From NCBI RefSeq assembly GCF_009177095.1, contig NZ_AP021861.1:3578501-3642500 (forward strand): a stretch of 64,000 bases of DNA. The letters run 5' to 3'. Source of the DNA: Lacipirellula parvula (GTDB lineage: Bacteria > Planctomycetota > Planctomycetia > Pirellulales > Lacipirellulaceae). Below the pieces are notes generated by a model. The model searched no databases and had not been told where the DNA came from. It worked only from the letters and a program-made list of their open reading frames with translations. Made by a program: the position numbers and the translations under genes. Shown piece by piece: positions 1,484-47,574 of the stretch (within the stretch, counting starts at the first letter, position 1; each line of letters opens with the position of its first letter).

Positions 1484-2134
1484 ATGCAAGTAGATCAAGC
1501 TGCTTCCTCTTTAGCGCCGTCGGTGCTGAAGCGCCGGGCGGCGTACGCCCTAGCTGCCGGCGCTGCTGCCGTCGGCGCGACCGATGCCGATGCTGCCGTC
1601 ATTTACTCGGGCCCGCAGAACATCAGCATCAACTCTGGCAATTCCCAGACGATCAATCTGGACGGCGACGGCTTCAACGACCTGCTGTTGAAGAACTACG
1701 TCTTCGGCGGCGGTTCTTACCAAGGCGCGACCGTTTCTTTTGCTCCCGGCAAACTCGTCGGGTTCACCAGCGGCATTAGCTACGCCTCGGCATTGACCGC
1801 GGGCAGCCCGATCAACAGCGGCACGTTGGGCCCGTCATTTTTTGGCTCGATGGCGTACGGCGCTGTTAATCCGAATGCTCAGTTCAACAACGTCACCAAC
1901 GCGTTTTTGGGTTTGAGCTTCCCCTCGGGTCCGAACACCTACTACGGCTGGGTGCGCGTCGACGTCAACAACGCTGCCAAGACGTTCGTTGTGAAGGACT
2001 GGGCCTACGAGAGCACCGCTGGCGTCGGCATCGCCGCTGGCGCGGGCCTGGTTCCCGAACCCGCCACGCTCGGCCTGTTGGCCTGCGGCGCCGCGGGCAT
2101 CGCGGCCATCCGTCGGCAGAAGGCGGCTGCTTAA
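1484..2134 (+). CDS. PEP-CTERM exported protein, paralogue of the next gene, no dockerin
   Basis: A 216-residue exported protein of unknown function. The N-terminus (about 45 residues) looks like an atypical signal: a polar start, RRAAYALAAGAAAVG, then a cleavage-like ADAA. The middle is beta-rich, with motifs shared with the neighbour at 2274: VIYSGPQNISI, LLKNYVF, GATVSFAPG, SMAYGA, YYGWVRV and KDWAYE. It ends with VPEPATLGLLACGAAG and an Arg/Lys-rich tail, the PEP-CTERM signature. The start is an ATG with GGAG about 10 bases upstream. Unlike the neighbour it lacks the dockerin module. It is separated from the next gene by 139 bp holding a strong hairpin, so the two may be separate transcripts. 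Confidence 0.85.
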   Translation: MQVDQAASSLAPSVLKRRAAYALAAGAAAVGATDADAAVIYSGPQNISINSGNSQTINLDGDGFNDLLLKNYVFGGGSYQGATVSFAPGKLVGFTSGISYASALTAGSPINSGTLGPSFFGSMAYGAVNPNAQFNNVTNAFLGLSFPSGPNTYYGWVRVDVNNAAKTFVVKDWAYESTAGVGIAAGAGLVPEPATLGLLACGAAGIAAIRRQKAAA

Positions 2135-2216
2135 GGCAGTCCGTCGTTGCCGTTCGTTCGCTTCGTCAGTGCATCCCTGCACGACGAGGTGTCGTTTGTG
2201 CTTCGCAATTGACGCT

Positions 2217-2243
2217 GGTTGCCGACCGCTGCGGTCGGCAACC
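2217..2243 (+). terminator. Strong hairpin between two PEP-CTERM paralogues
   Basis: A perfect 12-bp stem (GGTTGCCGACCG / CGGTCGGCAACC) with a 3-base loop, 82 bp after the stop of the gene at 1484 and 30 bp before the next start. Only a short T run follows (ggcgattt), so it is a weak intrinsic terminator or an mRNA-stabilising hairpin. Confidence 0.55.
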
Positions 2244-2273
2244 GGCGATTTCTGACATGGAGTCGATCATCCC

Positions 2274-3080
2274 ATGAGCGTTGAACACGCTTCAAGTTCC
2301 GCGGCAGCGCTGAGCCGTCGCGCTGGCTATGCGTTGGCGGCGACTGTTGCCGCAACAGGTTCAGCCACTGACGCCGACGGCGCGGTCGTCTACTCCGGCA
2401 TCCAAAACATTTCGATTTCGCAGTTCAACTATCAGACGCTCAAAATCGACGGCGATAATAACGTCGACATCGTGCTCAAGAACTACGTCTTCACGCAGGG
2501 CAACTACCAAGGCGGGACCGTTTCGTTCGCTCCTGGGGCCGTCGCTGGTTTCGCAGCAAACGGCTTGAACTACGCCTCGGCTCTCAATGCCGGCGTCACG
2601 ATCGATCAATCGTCCCTGGGCGGGTTCGCATTCTCGATGGCGTACGGCGCGAAGAACCCTTCGGCGCAATTCAACAACGCCGTGAATAAGTACCTTGGCT
2701 TCGCCTTTCCGATCGGCTCGGAATTGCATTACTCGTGGATCCGCGTCAGCGTCAACCAAGCGGCCGGGACGTTCGTCATTCACGACTGGGCTTGGGAAAA
2801 CCAAGCCGACGTTCCGATCATGACCGGGGCCGGCGGCCTGGGCGACTTCAACGTCGACGGCGTCGTCAATGGCGCCGACTTCCTCGTCTGGCAGCGCAGC
2901 TTTGGCGACACCTACGACGCGGCCGATCTCGAAGATTGGAAATCGGCCTTCGGCAACGGCGTCGCAGCCGCGACAACGGTTGCGGCCGTTCCTGAACCGG
3001 GCGCTCTCGGCCTGCTGGCGGCCGGGGCAGGGGGGCTCGAAATTCTGCGGCGGCGCCACGGACGCCGAAAGTCGTCGTGA
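2274..3080 (+). CDS. Dockerin-containing PEP-CTERM exported protein
   Basis: A 268-residue paralogue of the gene at 1484. It shares the N-terminal RRAGYALAA segment and the beta-rich body (VVYSGIQNISI, VLKNYVF, GTVSFAPG, SMAYGAKNPSAQFNN). In contrast to that gene, it carries a dockerin-like cassette at about residues 190-235 (GDFNVDGVVNGADFLVWQ and a second helix pair) before the VPEPGALGLLAAG tail. Dockerin modules bind cohesin partners in cellulosomes; in planctomycetes the partner is not established. It overlaps the next gene by 4 bp (GTGA at 3077-3080), so the two are likely translationally coupled although their functions look unrelated. Confidence 0.85.
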   Translation: MSVEHASSSAAALSRRAGYALAATVAATGSATDADGAVVYSGIQNISISQFNYQTLKIDGDNNVDIVLKNYVFTQGNYQGGTVSFAPGAVAGFAANGLNYASALNAGVTIDQSSLGGFAFSMAYGAKNPSAQFNNAVNKYLGFAFPIGSELHYSWIRVSVNQAAGTFVIHDWAWENQADVPIMTGAGGLGDFNVDGVVNGADFLVWQRSFGDTYDAADLEDWKSAFGNGVAAATTVAAVPEPGALGLLAAGAGGLEILRRRHGRRKSS

Positions 3081-5077
3081 AGCCGATCGAACCAGTTCGA
3101 TCTCCCGGCGGACCGCGGCGCGTGTTGCTCGTCGGGTGGGATGCGGCCGATTGGCAGATGATCCACCCGCTCATCGAGCAAGGATTGATGCCGACCACGG
3201 CGTCGCTCCTCGGGACCGGCGCCTGGGGCAACCTCGCGACGACACGGCCGATCCTCTCGCCGATGCTGTGGAACACCATCGCCACGGGCAAACGTCCCGA
3301 TCAACACGGCGTCCACGGCTTCACCGAGCCTACGCCCGACGGCAGCGGCGTGCGCCCCGCGGCCAGCACCAGCCGTAAATGCAAAGCCCTCTGGAACATC
3401 CTCACACAGAGCGGCCTCCGGTCGAACGTCGTCGGTTGGTACGCCTCGCATCCGGCCGAGCCAATCGCCGGCGTGATGGCGTCGAATCAGTTCGAGCAGT
3501 TCACCGTCGCCGACGAAGTTCCGTCGCCGGTCGCCCTGCACGCGATCCATCCGCCCGAATTGACGGAACAATTGGCGGCGTTCCGCGTGCTCCCCGGCGA
3601 GATCGACGCCACGGCGCTGCTGCCGTTCGTCCCGAGAGCTGCGCAGTTGCTCAATCAGCCTGAGCATCGCCTCGGCAAGCTGCAGCATATGCTCGCTCAG
3701 ACGGCGACGATCCACGCTGTCGCCACCCACTTGATGACCTCGACCGAGTGGGACTTCACCGCGGTGTATTACGAGGGGATCGATCGCTTCGGGCATGAGT
3801 TCATGCACTGCCACCCGCCGCAGATGGAGCAGGTGAGCGACGCTGAGTTCGAGGCCTATCGCCACTGCATGACGGGCATCTATCGCTTCCACGACATGAT
3901 GCTGCAGACGCTGCTGACGCTCGCCGGCGAGGAGACGGCCGTCATCCTGATGTCGGATCATGGCTACTTTAACGACCATCTCCGCCCCGATCCGCGCGAA
4001 GGCAAATCGGGCCCTACCGACTGGCATCGTCCGTTCGGCATCCTCGCGGCCCAAGGCCCCGGCATTCGCCGCGGCTCACGGCTGTACGGGGCGAGCATCC
4101 TCGACGTGACGCCGACGGTGCTCCATCTGCTCGGCTTGCCGGCCGCGTATGATATGCCGGGCCGCGTCCTCGCCGAGGTGCTGGAAAACCAGACGCCGCG
4201 CGAGCGGATCGAATCGTGGGAGGAAGTCGAAGGCGACGCTGGCCTCCATCCGCCAGACTTGCGGATTGATCCGGTCGAAAACCAAACCGTCCTCGCCCAA
4301 CTCGCGGCCTTAGGTTACGTCGACGCCCCCAGCGACGACGTGCAGAAGACGATCCGCGACACGATCGCTTGCAACCAGTTTAATCTTGCCCAGTCGCTCG
4401 CCGATTCGCGGGACTTCGCCCGCGCGATCAAGGTGCTCGACGGGCTCGATGCGAGCGTCCGCGACGCCGGGCCGACGCGACTGCTGGCCGCATCGTGCTA
4501 TCTTGGCGTCGACGATCGCGCGGCGGCGCGCGCCGCCATCGAAGGGCTGCTCGCGGCCGCGCCGAACGAACCGCGGCTCCACATGATGCTGGGAACGCTT
4601 GAGTTTGCGGAGGGGAATGCGGAGGCAGCATTGCGGCATCTAGATATTGTCGCTGCCGCCGAGCCGCGTTTGCCCGGTCTTCACATCAAACTCGGCGAGG
4701 TTTATCTCTCCACGAAGCGGTTCGAACGAGCGATTGCTGCGTTTGAAAAAGCGCTATCGATCGATCCCGACAGCCCGGTCGCCTACGCAGGAATGGGCCG
4801 GGCGAAGCTCGAACTCGGCAACCCGCAAGCGGCGCTAGACGACGCGCTCATTGCGGCCGAATTGGTGCACCACTTTCCGCGCGTTCACCTGACGATCGGG
4901 CAAGCCTTAACGGCGCTCGGCGACGACGCCGGAGCGGTCGAGGCGCTAGAGTTGTGCGTCAAGCAGGCGCCCCGTTTCACCGATGCCCATCAGGCGCTCG
5001 CCGGCGTCTACCGCAACCTGGGAAAGATAGACAAGGCGATGGCCGCCGAACTCCGCGCGAAGGGGACGCTCGCTTGA
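3077..5077 (+). CDS. Type I phosphodiesterase / nucleotide pyrophosphatase-like domain fused to TPRs
   Basis: A 666-residue protein of the alkaline-phosphatase superfamily. The N-terminal half has the expected metal and nucleophile landmarks: [10 protein letters not shown] near residue 15, [12 protein letters not shown] near 70 (the Thr/Ser nucleophile region), [11 protein letters not shown] near 235, [10 protein letters not shown] near 292 and DWHRPFGI near 315. From about residue 430 it becomes helical with TPR-like repeats ([19 protein letters not shown] is the clearest). Such proteins hydrolyse phosphodiester or phosphate-ester bonds, and the TPR part may bind a partner protein. There is no obvious signal peptide, so it may be cytoplasmic. 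It begins with GTG inside the stop of the upstream PEP-CTERM gene. The substrate is unknown. Confidence 0.85.
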
Positions 5078-5208
5078 TTTCCAGCCCTTTGACTACTAGC
5101 TTGAAGCACATCGCCGCCCGTGCAAACACGCAGGGCGCCGACAGCGTCGTCCGCTCGGCGGATGCGAGACGGCGCCGAGCTTTTGCGTTCAAACCCTTTG
5201 AGGTCAGC

Positions 5209-6294
5209 ATGCCGTTGGCATCGACGTCCGCCGTTTCGATCCGCCGCGGCTTCCGCGGCTTCACGCTCGTCGAATTGTTGGTGGTGATCGCCATCATCGG
5301 CGTGCTGGTCGCCCTACTACTCCCAGCCGTTCAAGCGGCGCGCGAAGCGGCGCGGCGGAGCAGTTGCACGAGTAATTTGCGGCAGACTGGATTCGCTGCG
5401 CTCAACTACGAATCGGCGAACAAGCGGTTTCCTTGCTACCTGGCTGGTTTTGACTATTCCGATCCGAAAGCGACGCCTGACAGTCAGGGACGAAATCACC
5501 AGCACACGGGCGTGTTGACAATGCTGCTTCCCTACATGGAAGCACAAACCGTTTTCACCATGTTTGATTCCAACGTCAAGGTTGGCATCCAAACGTACGA
5601 CAAGCCCTATTACGATCTTGCCAAGACGGTCGCGTGGGAGGCCTCCCACGCGAACCTCTCCACACTCCTGTGCCCGAGCGTTGGGAGCGAACCGCCGCAA
5701 ACCCGACGCATCAGCAAGGTCTGGGGCTTCCTGGGCGGCGGCGCTCTTAAGTTCAGCTCCGAGGGATTTGAACCCGAATTCAACATCGGCATCACCCACT
5801 ACTTAGGCAATGCGGGCGTTTACGGGCAAGTTGGCCCTGGTCTCACCTATCAAATGAACGGTATTTCGCGCGTGGTCGATGATGAGCTAATCGGCCTCTT
5901 CGGCATCCGCTCGAAAATTCGCGTTGGACAAGTTCTCGACGGCATGTCGCAAACCATGATGTTTGGCGAAGCGCCTGGCACCATCGGCACATCCATTCCG
6001 GATGACAATGTTGCGGGCAAATTCGACGGCTTCACCCAAGGCTACGCTTGGGCTGGTTGGGGGACGATGCCCACGGAAAAAGGTCTCGACTTGGCGTTTG
6101 AACAGAATCTCGCGCAGGGCGGCAACTATCTCACGAAACGCTGGTACTACGGCTCCGTCCACTCCGGCGACGTCGTCCTCTTCTGCTTCGCCGACGGCTC
6201 GGTTCATCCGCTCAACAAGAACATCGACAAGACGCTGTACCTTTCGCTCTCCACGATCCGCGGCGAAGAGGCGGTGAGTTCCGACGCCCTGTAG
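5209..6294 (+). CDS. DUF1559 pseudopilin-like protein
   Basis: A 361-residue protein with a type IV pilin/pseudopilin leader ([17 protein letters not shown]) and the following [10 protein letters not shown] segment that define planctomycete DUF1559 (SBP_bac_10-like) proteins. The C-terminal half shows the usual SMMLGE-like (TMMFGEAPG) and [11 protein letters not shown] motifs. The frame is open further upstream, but ATG 5209 is preferred because GAGG lies 6-9 bases before it and the leader then starts about 14 residues in. The family is very abundant in planctomycetes and is presumed to be processed by prepilin peptidase. The function is unknown. A tiny lipoprotein gene follows, a pairing seen three times in this window. 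Confidence 0.9.
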
Positions 6295-6343
6295 CCCACG
6301 CTCGCGGTCAATTACCCGTACTAGTTCCCTCGAAGGTCACGCC

Positions 6344-45276: not shown

Positions 45277-45756
45277 TTAGATCACCTGCTCGACCAGCAC
45301 GGGCTCGCGGTCGCGCTTGGTCATCATCTGGTAGTAATGCGTCGACGGCTGTGTGAGTACGAACACATGCGGCCGTTCTTGCTCGTCTCGCACGACGATG
45401 CCGCGGACTCCCTCGACGATCGCGAACCAGACGCCTCGCTCGAAACCGTAGTCGGCGGGGATGACGACCGGCTCAGGCTTTAGGTAGCGCCAGTTGTCCG
45501 CCCGCAATCCTTCCTCTTTGCAGTAACCGACGCGGAAGCATTTGCGGTTCTTCTCAAACGCCATGCCCCACTCGTAGATGACGAGTTGGCCGTCGTGGAC
45601 CACCGGCAATTGCGGGCGCCGCTCGGCGAACATGAAGCGAGCCTCGAATCGCCCGCTATGATCGAGCGATCGGTCATGCAGTCGCCAGCCTAGCTCATGG
45701 CGCAGAATGAGCGGGTCGGTCAGCTTGTCTCGGAGGATGGCAACGCCGCTGCACAT
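45277..45756 (-). CDS. SRAP-like protein (HMCES/YedK family), divergent
   Basis: A 159-residue protein. ATG 45756 is chosen because the upstream polymerase stop and this start share bases as TAATG, and because it puts Cys at position 2, the catalytic residue of SRAP proteins after Met removal. Other SRAP-like stretches follow in order: FMFAERRPQLPVV like the AP-x-VPVV segment, YEWG, PEPVVIPADYGFE like the IPADGFYE motif with the catalytic Glu, GVWFAIVEGVRGIVV, and a C-terminal THYYQMMTKRDREPVLV, where the His lies earlier than usual. SRAP proteins form a thiazolidine link to abasic sites in single-stranded DNA and protect them. Coupling to a Y-family polymerase fits a damage-tolerance role. 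Confidence 0.7.
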   Translation of the reverse strand: MCSGVAILRDKLTDPLILRHELGWRLHDRSLDHSGRFEARFMFAERRPQLPVVHDGQLVIYEWGMAFEKNRKCFRVGYCKEEGLRADNWRYLKPEPVVIPADYGFERGVWFAIVEGVRGIVVRDEQERPHVFVLTQPSTHYYQMMTKRDREPVLVEQVI

Positions 45757-46949
45757 TAGAAGCACGTCTTTCCGTGGATGTCGGGAATATCGTAGGAGTT
45801 GGCCGGGTCGTCGTACACGTCGGTCAGCGGCAACGTCGAAGCGCTCCGCAGCGCGAACCGGCCGACGACGTCGTTGATGCTGCGCTTCACGAATTCGATG
45901 CGCTCATCCTTCACTGTCCGCCGTTCAAAGAGACTGCGTTGGCGATCGGTGAGCGGTCGCAGCCGGTCGGCAATGACGTGCATGTAGTGAACTGTCGCCG
46001 ACGCTGGGCGCCAGACCCGCGGTAGGAGCCATAGTGCTGCGTCTCGCAAATCACCGGTGTCGGCGGTACTTCCAAGTAGGCTGCACCGAATCGCTCGCCC
46101 GGGGGCGCCCCTGAAGTCGAGCGACAGCGTCAGTTGGTCGCAGGTGACTTGATAGTAGAAGAGTGCTTCCACAACGCGCTCGACGTTGCGGACGACGAAC
46201 GCCGCCACGCGGGCGGGGTCGCGGGTCGCGCGGCCAATCGAGCCGCCGCGGGCTATCCGCTGATGAGCGGCGCGGCTGATGAGAACGGGCAGCACCGGCT
46301 CGCCCCGCAGTTCGTACCAGAGCCGTTCTCCCACCACGGTCAGCAGTTTGCGAATCAGCCGGTTGTCGGCGGCGACGAACTCGTCGCAGGTGGTGATGCG
46401 ATGGGCGGCGAGCTTGATCGCTGCCTTGCCGGCAATGCCGCAGACTTCGGTGACGGGGATGCCCGCTAGCAGTTCGCGACGCTCGTCGTCGGACGTGACG
46501 ATGCGGACGCCGAACGGTTTACTGGAATCTGAGCAGAGTTTGGCCAGCGTCTTCGTCGGGGCGATGCCGACGCTCACCGGGACGCCAACGCGCTCCAGGA
46601 TGGCGGCCTGCAGGCCGTGAGGGTCGATCACTTCGACTTCATAGAACGATTCGTCGATCGAGTAGAACTCAACCCGCGGGCTGACTTCTTTCACCAGTTC
46701 GAGCATCTTCCTGCTAAGGGCTTCGTACCAGCGAAAGTCACGCTTCACATAGACGGCGTCGGGGCAGAGCGTCACGCCTTCCCAGATCGGCGTTCCCGTC
46801 TTGATGCCGGCGGCCTTTGCCTCGTAACTCTTGGCGATGATGCAGGCGCCATGGTTGCCGATGACGCCGACCGGTACGCCGGTCAGATGAGGGAACCTCA
46901 CCCGCTCCGCGGAGACGTAAAAGCAATCTGCATCGACGTGGCCTATCAT
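45756..46949 (-). CDS. Y-family DNA polymerase
   Basis: A 397-residue translesion-type polymerase. HVDADCFYVSAERVR carries the first catalytic Asp and the steric region, GVIGNHGACIIAKSYEAKAAGI the next motif, and FYSIDESFYEV the SIDE motif with the catalytic acidic pair. VSVGIAPTKTLAKLCSDSSKP and the HhH region (EVCGIAGKAAIKLAAH) follow, and a little-finger-like domain extends to residue 350. It is near the usual DinB/UmuC length but lacks a clear C-terminal clamp-binding motif. It probably bypasses damaged bases. The start of the SRAP-like gene overlaps its stop by 1 base. Which subfamily it belongs to (UmuC, DinB or a planctomycete branch) is not resolved. Confidence 0.88.
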   Translation of the reverse strand: MIGHVDADCFYVSAERVRFPHLTGVPVGVIGNHGACIIAKSYEAKAAGIKTGTPIWEGVTLCPDAVYVKRDFRWYEALSRKMLELVKEVSPRVEFYSIDESFYEVEVIDPHGLQAAILERVGVPVSVGIAPTKTLAKLCSDSSKPFGVRIVTSDDERRELLAGIPVTEVCGIAGKAAIKLAAHRITTCDEFVAADNRLIRKLLTVVGERLWYELRGEPVLPVLISRAAHQRIARGGSIGRATRDPARVAAFVVRNVERVVEALFYYQVTCDQLTLSLDFRGAPGRAIRCSLLGSTADTGDLRDAALWLLPRVWRPASATVHYMHVIADRLRPLTDRQRSLFERRTVKDERIEFVKRSINDVVGRFALRSASTLPLTDVYDDPANSYDIPDIHGKTCF

Positions 46950-47135
46950 GGCTCACCAATCTACCGACTGATGAACAAATAGCCACCATCGCAAAAACTA
47001 CAGAATCTGGTGGCCAGTAGGGCGATGGCACACTACGCGGGGACATAAAACGAGAAGAATTGGTCCGCGCTCCTGGTTCGCCACGTCCCTAGCTGCTGAA
47101 TCTTTCGACAAAGAGGGGTAAATATACTAAGCGCA

Positions 47136-47147
47136 CCACATATGTGG
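47136..47147. promoter_or_regulatory. Palindromic candidate operator
   Basis: CCACATATGTGG, a perfect 12-bp palindrome, 67 bp before the start at 47215 and about 190 bp upstream of the divergent Y-family polymerase. It could be a regulator site for either gene, or chance. Confidence 0.35.
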
Positions 47148-47214
47148 GGATTGCTGCTCCGCACGGCGCTCGCCAAGCTACTCGCCCCTTCATTGAGTAG
47201 CAACAGGGTGCAAA

Positions 47215-47574
47215 ATGAGAGACATGTTCTTTGTCGCAGAGATGCGACTCGCTGGCCCGGGGCAGCGGCTAGTTGTGAGCGCTAGAGACATCGGCAACAT
47301 CGTCGTGCCGGTGTTCCTCGTCGATCCAGAGTTCTACGATGACTTTCTGGAGTCGGCCGAATACCTGCATGACTATCCCGCCGCGAATACTTGTTCGGAA
47401 CTCTCACGGGAGTGCAATCGAGCTTTGTGGTATCCGAGCTACCGCACACGCTGGCGAATCGTCTACGCTCCAGGGCCGTTTGAGATCGACGTGGAAGTCG
47501 AGCTGATCTCGCCCCTCAGTGCCGTGCCGCCTTTGCCAGCGAGGCTGCCGAGCGGAAGAACCGCCGTCACCTAG
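47215..47574 (+). CDS. Hypothetical 119-aa protein
   Basis: No family recognised. SD-like AGGGTG lies just before the ATG. The product begins MRDMFFVAEMRLAGPGQRLVVSARDIGNIVVPVFLVDPEFYDDFLESAEYLHDY, is acidic in the middle and ends in a Pro-rich stretch. No signal or membrane segment. Its end overlaps the end of the convergent nuclease gene by 8 bp. It faces away from the DNA-damage pair, sharing the 265-bp divergent region. Confidence 0.55.
   Translation: MRDMFFVAEMRLAGPGQRLVVSARDIGNIVVPVFLVDPEFYDDFLESAEYLHDYPAANTCSELSRECNRALWYPSYRTRWRIVYAPGPFEIDVEVELISPLSAVPPLPARLPSGRTAVT

Follow-up and report, generated by a model that had tools for sequence, protein, structure and literature searches.

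A short, divergent SRAP-like protein encoded beside a Y-family DNA polymerase in Lacipirellula parvula and other planctomycetes

In the umuDC operon, the gene for the small partner precedes that for the polymerase. The extreme C-terminus of UmuC binds UmuD′, as described in passages of two papers (PMC6511836, PMC11791011), and passages of a 2013 paper place SRAP genes beside UmuCD, DinB and ImuB-DnaE2 (PMC3765255). In passages of a 2026 NAR survey, a specific link is drawn between a UmuC-like polymerase and one group of SRAP-related proteins, this group is named a putative polymerase-binding small subunit, and the module complexes are modelled by AlphaFold (PMC12926913); for the group, the same passages specify neither taxon nor motif, nor the state of the active site. 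Literature searches on SRAP proteins with UmuC or Y-family polymerases found nothing closer than the works cited here.

The 64-kb stretch of L. parvula DNA analysed here (the window) also holds a UmuC-like polymerase gene adjoining a SRAP-related gene, and since the survey passages report a link of this sort (PMC12926913), we place the pair within a known kind: it is a real, recurrent damage-tolerance module of a recently recognised type. As far as those passages characterise it, the SRAP-related group of the survey is likely the family described here; new are the tail motif of the polymerase, the LexA-type box, the His and Cys tallies and the atypical copy in the window. Compared with DNA polymerase V (UmuC-UmuD′), the module likewise combines a Y-family polymerase with the gene for a small partner and, probably, with LexA control, and differs in that the modelled partner has the SRAP fold instead of the LexA/UmuD peptidase fold and that its gene comes after the polymerase. 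A search of Pfam for a UmuD-type partner gave no peptidase family match for the window protein, and at Z > 3 its predicted fold matches SRAP only. With the SRAP family (YedK of E. coli, human HMCES), the small protein shares the fold, Cys2, the acid in the PA-x-x-x-x-E position and the RMP region, whereas it goes undetected by PF02586, ends right after RMPVL, has His at the catalytic-His position in 21 of 52 homologues (Arg in the window) and is tied to one polymerase clade.

Both genes lie on the minus strand. The polymerase (45756..46949, 397 aa) is a UmuC/DinB-like member of the Y family; it passes PF00817 (118.5 bits versus a cut-off of 23.2) and PF11799, matches PHROG 1268 (E 5.9e-69) and has intact catalytic motifs (HVDADCFY at residues 4–11, SIDE at 97–100). 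The SRAP-like gene (45277..45756, 159 aa including Met) is joined to it through TAATG (45754..45758), in which polymerase stop and SRAP-like start share one base. Reading the sequence confirmed the coupling reported in the earlier note at these positions, together with the placement of Cys at residue 2 that it sets (codon 45751..45753) and the motifs YEWG (61–64) and IPADYGFE (99–106) that follow MC at 1–2. The ATG start was preferred over a GTG nine bases upstream, given in the program-made list of reading frames, because Met-Cys is shared by 18 of 19 aligned homologues, the exception (L018) starting with MD. By motif, Glu106 (45439..45441) is the counterpart of YedK Glu105, and Arg148 (45313..45315) stands at the catalytic-His position of canonical SRAPs (YedK His160). 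The residue and neighbour counts below are based on 52 distinct planctomycete homologues, after exclusion of identical duplicates, fragments (L020, L055, L056, L138, L140, L142), two diverged polymerase-less copies (L139, L141) and one copy at a contig edge with no start codon and QS instead of MC (L041); plasmid relatives were not counted. Since the 1-base overlap is found in 11 of these 52 (the window included), the coupling is not unusual, as had been supposed when it was called unusually tight; otherwise, in the 46 homologues whose gene directly follows a polymerase, the gap is 2–597 nt, with some polymerases cut by contig ends.

The assignment of the small protein to SRAP had to be decided against its profile. 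With E values of up to 10 allowed, the window protein matched nothing in Pfam, NCBIfam or PHROGs; this includes PF02586, whose silence had been named beforehand as refuting the assignment, so that by profile the protein fails as a SRAP. Among 19 homologues, the best PF02586 value was E 0.066, for one protein only, and scanning them singly against Pfam and NCBIfam gave no convincing match. We nevertheless kept the assignment because fold comparison and shared motifs overrule the profile test. The AlphaFold2 (AF2) model of the SRAP-like protein (19 sequences) reached pLDDT 90 and pTM 0.85. Foldseek ranked five SRAP chains at the top (E 0.005–0.03, none at E ≤ 0.001), and re-examination of its list with VIA-align gave 15 SRAP entries at Z 9.3–11.1 with rmsd 3.1–4.1 over 124–143 residues; the next entry was unrelated (Z 2.7), and matches at Z > 3 were exclusively SRAP. 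As modelled and compared with solved structures, the small partner has the SRAP fold. Most homologues share an N-terminal MC, a WG motif, TGWxxxES, IPAxxxLExGVWF and HDRMPVL, which parallel canonical motifs in an alignment with 24 canonical SRAPs, whereas hhalign of the family profile against canonical SRAPs was weak (probability 57%, over 43 columns at the C-terminus). The protein ends five residues past RMPVL, and a stretch of ~50–60 residues found beyond the RMPV motif in canonical SRAPs is absent; three canonical SRAPs compared at this point continue for ~55–65 residues. The 52 short homologues measure 136–174 aa versus 220–254 aa for the 24 canonical SRAPs of relatives, excepting one canonical SRAP cut by a stop codon (174 aa). 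The description of the protein as SRAP-like, short and divergent is borne out. The window's genome also encodes a canonical SRAP elsewhere.

Chance neighbourhood of the two genes was ruled out: 46 of the 52 SRAP-like genes immediately follow, on the same strand, a gene for a close relative of the window polymerase. The exceptions are a gene that by eye follows a ribosomal gene (L017), two with no polymerase in the 6 kb upstream (L030, L049), one whose polymerase is 2.7 kb off (L043), one at a contig edge (L046) and one with the polymerase on the opposite strand (L047). Across 97 genomes (the window's included), a SRAP-like homologue was found in 19 at E ≤ 0.001 and the polymerase clade (no match below 279 bits, whereas the best match outside it had 129) in 20, with both in 18, the SRAP-like gene alone in 1 and the polymerase alone in 2; in both polymerase-only cases the polymerase lies near a contig end (125 and 180 nt). 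This co-occurrence has a Fisher p of 2e-16, calculated over genomes that are not independent. Canonical SRAPs were present in 63 of the 97 genomes, the window's among them, and showed no link to the module (11 of 19 genomes with the SRAP-like gene versus 52 of 78 without it). A canonical SRAP gene even adjoins the pair at no fewer than five loci (L016, L018, L019, L053, L054). Because of this lack of association and the adjoining canonical genes, the short protein is no simple replacement of canonical SRAP. At two of these loci (L018, L054) the short protein no longer has Cys2. Of the genes that flank the pair in the window, the transporter was found in 4 of 8 genomes and the nuclease in 3, never both in the same genome.

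The likeliest reading, which we consider somewhat more probable than not, is that the pair is a two-gene DNA-damage module, made of an active-looking translesion polymerase and a small subunit dedicated to it, for which a shortened SRAP fold was used. In the mechanism we envisage, LexA would repress the operon until DNA damage; the SRAP-like protein would bind the polymerase through its C-terminal tail, as the C-terminus of UmuC binds UmuD′; and the SRAP pocket would bind single-stranded DNA or abasic/aldehyde lesions at a stalled fork, holding the polymerase there. Members with Cys2 and the acid could also capture an aldehyde lesion covalently and slowly, and in members lacking Cys2 the role would be binding only. 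The combination of abasic-site protection with translesion synthesis put forward in the earlier note is a plausible hypothesis, and the interpretation given there is supported in part.

The tail itself is a conspicuous feature of the family. Polymerase C-termini end in GKxCF in 38 of 38 cases, plus 13 more from a second set, and the motif is absent from the tails of four other Y-family polymerases that were compared. In the window the tail reads SYDIPDIHGKTCF (45759..45797, minus strand), and among the 38 polymerases it is the only one with Pro for the first Cys of the family consensus YDICDxxGKxCF. By analogy with UmuC, we propose that GKxCF is a docking site for the SRAP-like protein; it might bind something else. 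AF2 modelling of a read-through fusion of one pair (L004; single chain, 37 sequences) reached pTM 0.54 without confident docking, and the two blocks that hold the tail had pLDDT 46 and 29. The failed docking thus lends no support to the tail proposal, and a single-chain model from 37 sequences does not exclude docking either. Upstream of the tail, the polymerase carries QRSLF (45927..45941, minus strand; found by eye), which we take to be a pentapeptide of the beta-clamp-binding type. A further segment, SINDVVGRFALRS (45843..45881, minus strand), resembles by eye the RecA-NT motif of PolY polymerases described in passages of two papers (PMC6511836, PMC12926913), and Pfam DUF4113 gave no match.

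Upstream of the polymerase in many relatives we noticed the palindrome TGWAC-N4-GTWCA, lying by eye between −35- and −10-like boxes. In 36 promoter stretches (the row of L031 being left out, as its upstream stretch is an extraction artefact), TGTACN4GTACA was found with at most one mismatch in 14 (0.1 expected from mononucleotide shuffles), with two mismatches in 11 (2.1 expected) and with three mismatches at best in 11 (13.2 expected), the window being among the last; the pattern was picked after inspecting the promoters, and this tally is descriptive. A matrix was subsequently built from 12 polymerase promoter sites only, leaving lexA promoters as an independent test. Of 10 genomes, 8 have a site scoring at least 11.5 before lexA, and the window's genome is one of them; two lexA promoters fail the matrix (L112 weak, L121 none). 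LexA control of the polymerase/SRAP-like operon is probable in many relatives, because the matrix from polymerase promoters also marks lexA promoters, and damage induction is likely for many relatives with a LexA-type box. The 12 relatives themselves score 11.7–17.8 (leave-one-out); in the whole 64-kb window only one position, within a regulator gene, scores as high as the lexA sites, and no LexA-type box lies within 600 nt of the window polymerase (46950..47549, minus strand), where the best site, at 46972, scores 3.9 (chance level). When TGWACN4GTWCA was counted across 10 whole genomes, it was more frequent than its reversed control in just two, with 24 versus 10 in the window's genome and 14 versus 13 in G026. 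Literature searches on planctomycete LexA motifs found nothing closer than the works cited here, and the module supplies a candidate LexA-box consensus for these planctomycetes. In 7 of the 10 lexA upstream regions (L113–L119) there is also a TGTACG-NN-CGTATA palindrome, a candidate planctomycete LexA box.

Judged by the clade-conserved positions that it breaks, no SRAP-like protein of its clade has diverged further than the window copy. Of 76 positions conserved in this clade of 15 members it departs at 23, against 8 of 74 for the next in line, and as it is the outermost branch of the clade, this count is inflated. The polymerase of the window breaks 22 of 213 clade-conserved positions, similar to L007 (23 of 215) and L006 (19 of 213). 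Arg148, the Pro in the polymerase tail, the lost clade-conserved positions and the missing LexA-type box lead us to suspect that the partner subunit may be drifting in the window's genome. It is conceivable, if on balance doubtful, that the SRAP-like gene is decaying here, the polymerase being kept while its partner, together with LexA control, is disappearing. The breakage in the clade combined with a polymerase resembling that of L007, the change of His to Arg at 148 and of Cys to Pro in the tail, and the promoter, which is alone at three mismatches among the 14 promoter stretches of the clade, would all fit such decay. However, apart from the inflation of the clade count, when all 52 homologues are considered, 5 of 28 conserved positions are broken in the window protein, the same count as in L017, L053 and L054, which places it among the worst four and not alone; both reading frames are open, Cys2 and Glu106 are retained, and Glu at 151 is found in nine other sequences as well. 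In five same-genus genomes that were searched (68–94% complete), the SRAP-like gene was found in none.

Cys2 is present in 46 of the 52 homologues, in line with the conservation that the earlier note expected, and an acid stands at the YedK Glu105 position in 51 (E 41, D 10; the remaining one R), with Cys2 and acid together in 46. At position 148 the residue is H in 21, S in 20, Y in 8, N in 2 and R in 1, the window, so that 31 of 52 lack His. The fold alignment ends with model residue 157 at YedK 169 and HMCES 219, which would put 148 at YedK 160 if the alignment is gap-free. On the same assumption, Arg148 would be the equivalent of His210 of HMCES, which we take to be its catalytic His. The canonical Asn (NARxET, YedK Asn75; 24 of 24) falls on residue 65 in one alignment with a large gap, where 34 of 41 homologues have Asn and the window Met, an equivalence that is uncertain. 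In a rapidly built tree, several branches of which are weak, parsimony gives at least four losses of Cys2 and at least five changes of His, and no single chemistry therefore fits all members. For YedK, passages of one study describe Cys2 and Glu105 as the most important residues, cross-linking as ~tenfold slower but still occurring in H160A and H160Q, reversal as severely slowed in H160Q and the effect of N75A as modest (PMC9436759). Set against these mutants, the tallies indicate that the family retains both residues that YedK needs most and frequently drops the His.

A more specific version of the dedicated-subunit reading, which we offer as a tentative and rather unlikely proposal, is that the SRAP fold was turned from a free-standing abasic cross-linker into a structural subunit of the translesion polymerase held by GKxCF, so that an unrelated fold would have taken on a role like that of UmuD′. 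Cross-linking would be optional in such a subunit, because Cys2 has been discarded at least four times and the His of ring opening and reversal in over half of the members; members in which both Cys2 and the acid persist would tether the polymerase by slow, nearly irreversible captures. HMCES is reported, in passages of the YedK study, to guard cells against breakage of strands at abasic sites and to act as an inhibitor of translesion synthesis that is mutagenic (PMC9436759). If the proposal is true, lesion capture would tether the polymerase instead of shielding the lesion from translesion synthesis, the opposite of that action.

Alternatively, the small protein could be an ordinary abasic-site shield of the HMCES/YedK type that is merely co-transcribed and acts alone, forming a thiazolidine cross-link to single-stranded AP sites through Cys2 and Glu106. 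The frequent retention of both residues and the SRAP fold of the model agree with a shield, as does the Asn that most homologues have at residue 65 in the one alignment; in the YedK passages (PMC9436759), cross-linking survives H160A/Q at a roughly tenfold lower rate and N75A alters it modestly. Against it, position 148 is other than His in most homologues and Cys2 is missing in 6 of 52, a canonical SRAP is already available in 63 of 97 genomes including the window's, and near-constant pairing with a polymerase is unexpected for a free-standing shield. We therefore regard a plain shield as unlikely. An autoproteolytic switch, in which the protein cleaves its own N-terminus and then activates the polymerase, follows the idea that gave SRAP its name in passages of the 2013 paper (PMC3765255) and is very improbable here, as Cys directly after Met leaves hardly anything to cut off, Met is still removed in active-site mutants of YedK according to passages of PMC9436759, and the proposed catalytic His is missing in 31 of 52 homologues.

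Under the favoured reading of a polymerase with a dedicated SRAP-fold subunit, the family provides natural SRAP variants, with cross-linking residues kept or lost by lineage beside one polymerase, in which shielding versus delivery of lesions can be tested. It also provides a candidate SOS polymerase partner that annotation would miss, as neither Pfam, NCBIfam nor PHROGs gives a match.

Beyond these genomes, a phylum-wide search found a match in 14 of 392 genomes drawn evenly, and the family is therefore patchy in the phylum. A phage origin was considered and rejected, as searches of phage records and IMG/VR, at the sensitivity used, brought up no relative that convinced, and viral structure models gave no significant fold match; the family profile did not confirm the sole IMG/VR match (L021, 32 residues). 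Two plasmid proteins of Methylophaga match the family profile (probability 98–99%), and tblastn from one of them found relatives on plasmids of Pseudomonas and Nitrosomonas (45–53% identity). On the Methylophaga thalassica plasmid NZ_CP143310.1 (positions 2132–6297), the order is lexA, Y-family polymerase, SRAP-like gene, unknown gene and ssb; the SRAP-like protein starts with MCGG, its gene shares a 1-base TAATG overlap with the polymerase stop, and the polymerase is only 26% identical and lacks the GKxCF tail. Plasmid SRAP-like copies with no adjacent polymerase occur in Pseudomonas, Nitrosomonas and M. pinxianii (L147, L148, L124). The copy on Pseudomonas pXWY probably starts with MCGC, the annotated start being probably late in view of an upstream ATG TGC GGA TGT, the Nitrosomonas copy starts with MYGG (Tyr for Cys2), and the M. 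pinxianii copy is truncated.

Some further copies were observed in planctomycete genomes. One genome (G479) has two very diverged stand-alone SRAP-like paralogues (L139, L141), which begin with MCD and whose loci hold no polymerase. Another (G027) carries a broken second copy of the pair (L020), with a stop codon and the polymerase pieces apart, so that the module may be prone to duplication and decay. In the window's own genome, a second locus (L143, G000:C1:6272500-6277500) shows no SRAP-like remnant within 5 kb and holds at 2377–2595 a relic of a second polymerase copy, in which 73 residues, 68% identical to polymerase residues 57–129, lie within an otherwise unrelated frame.
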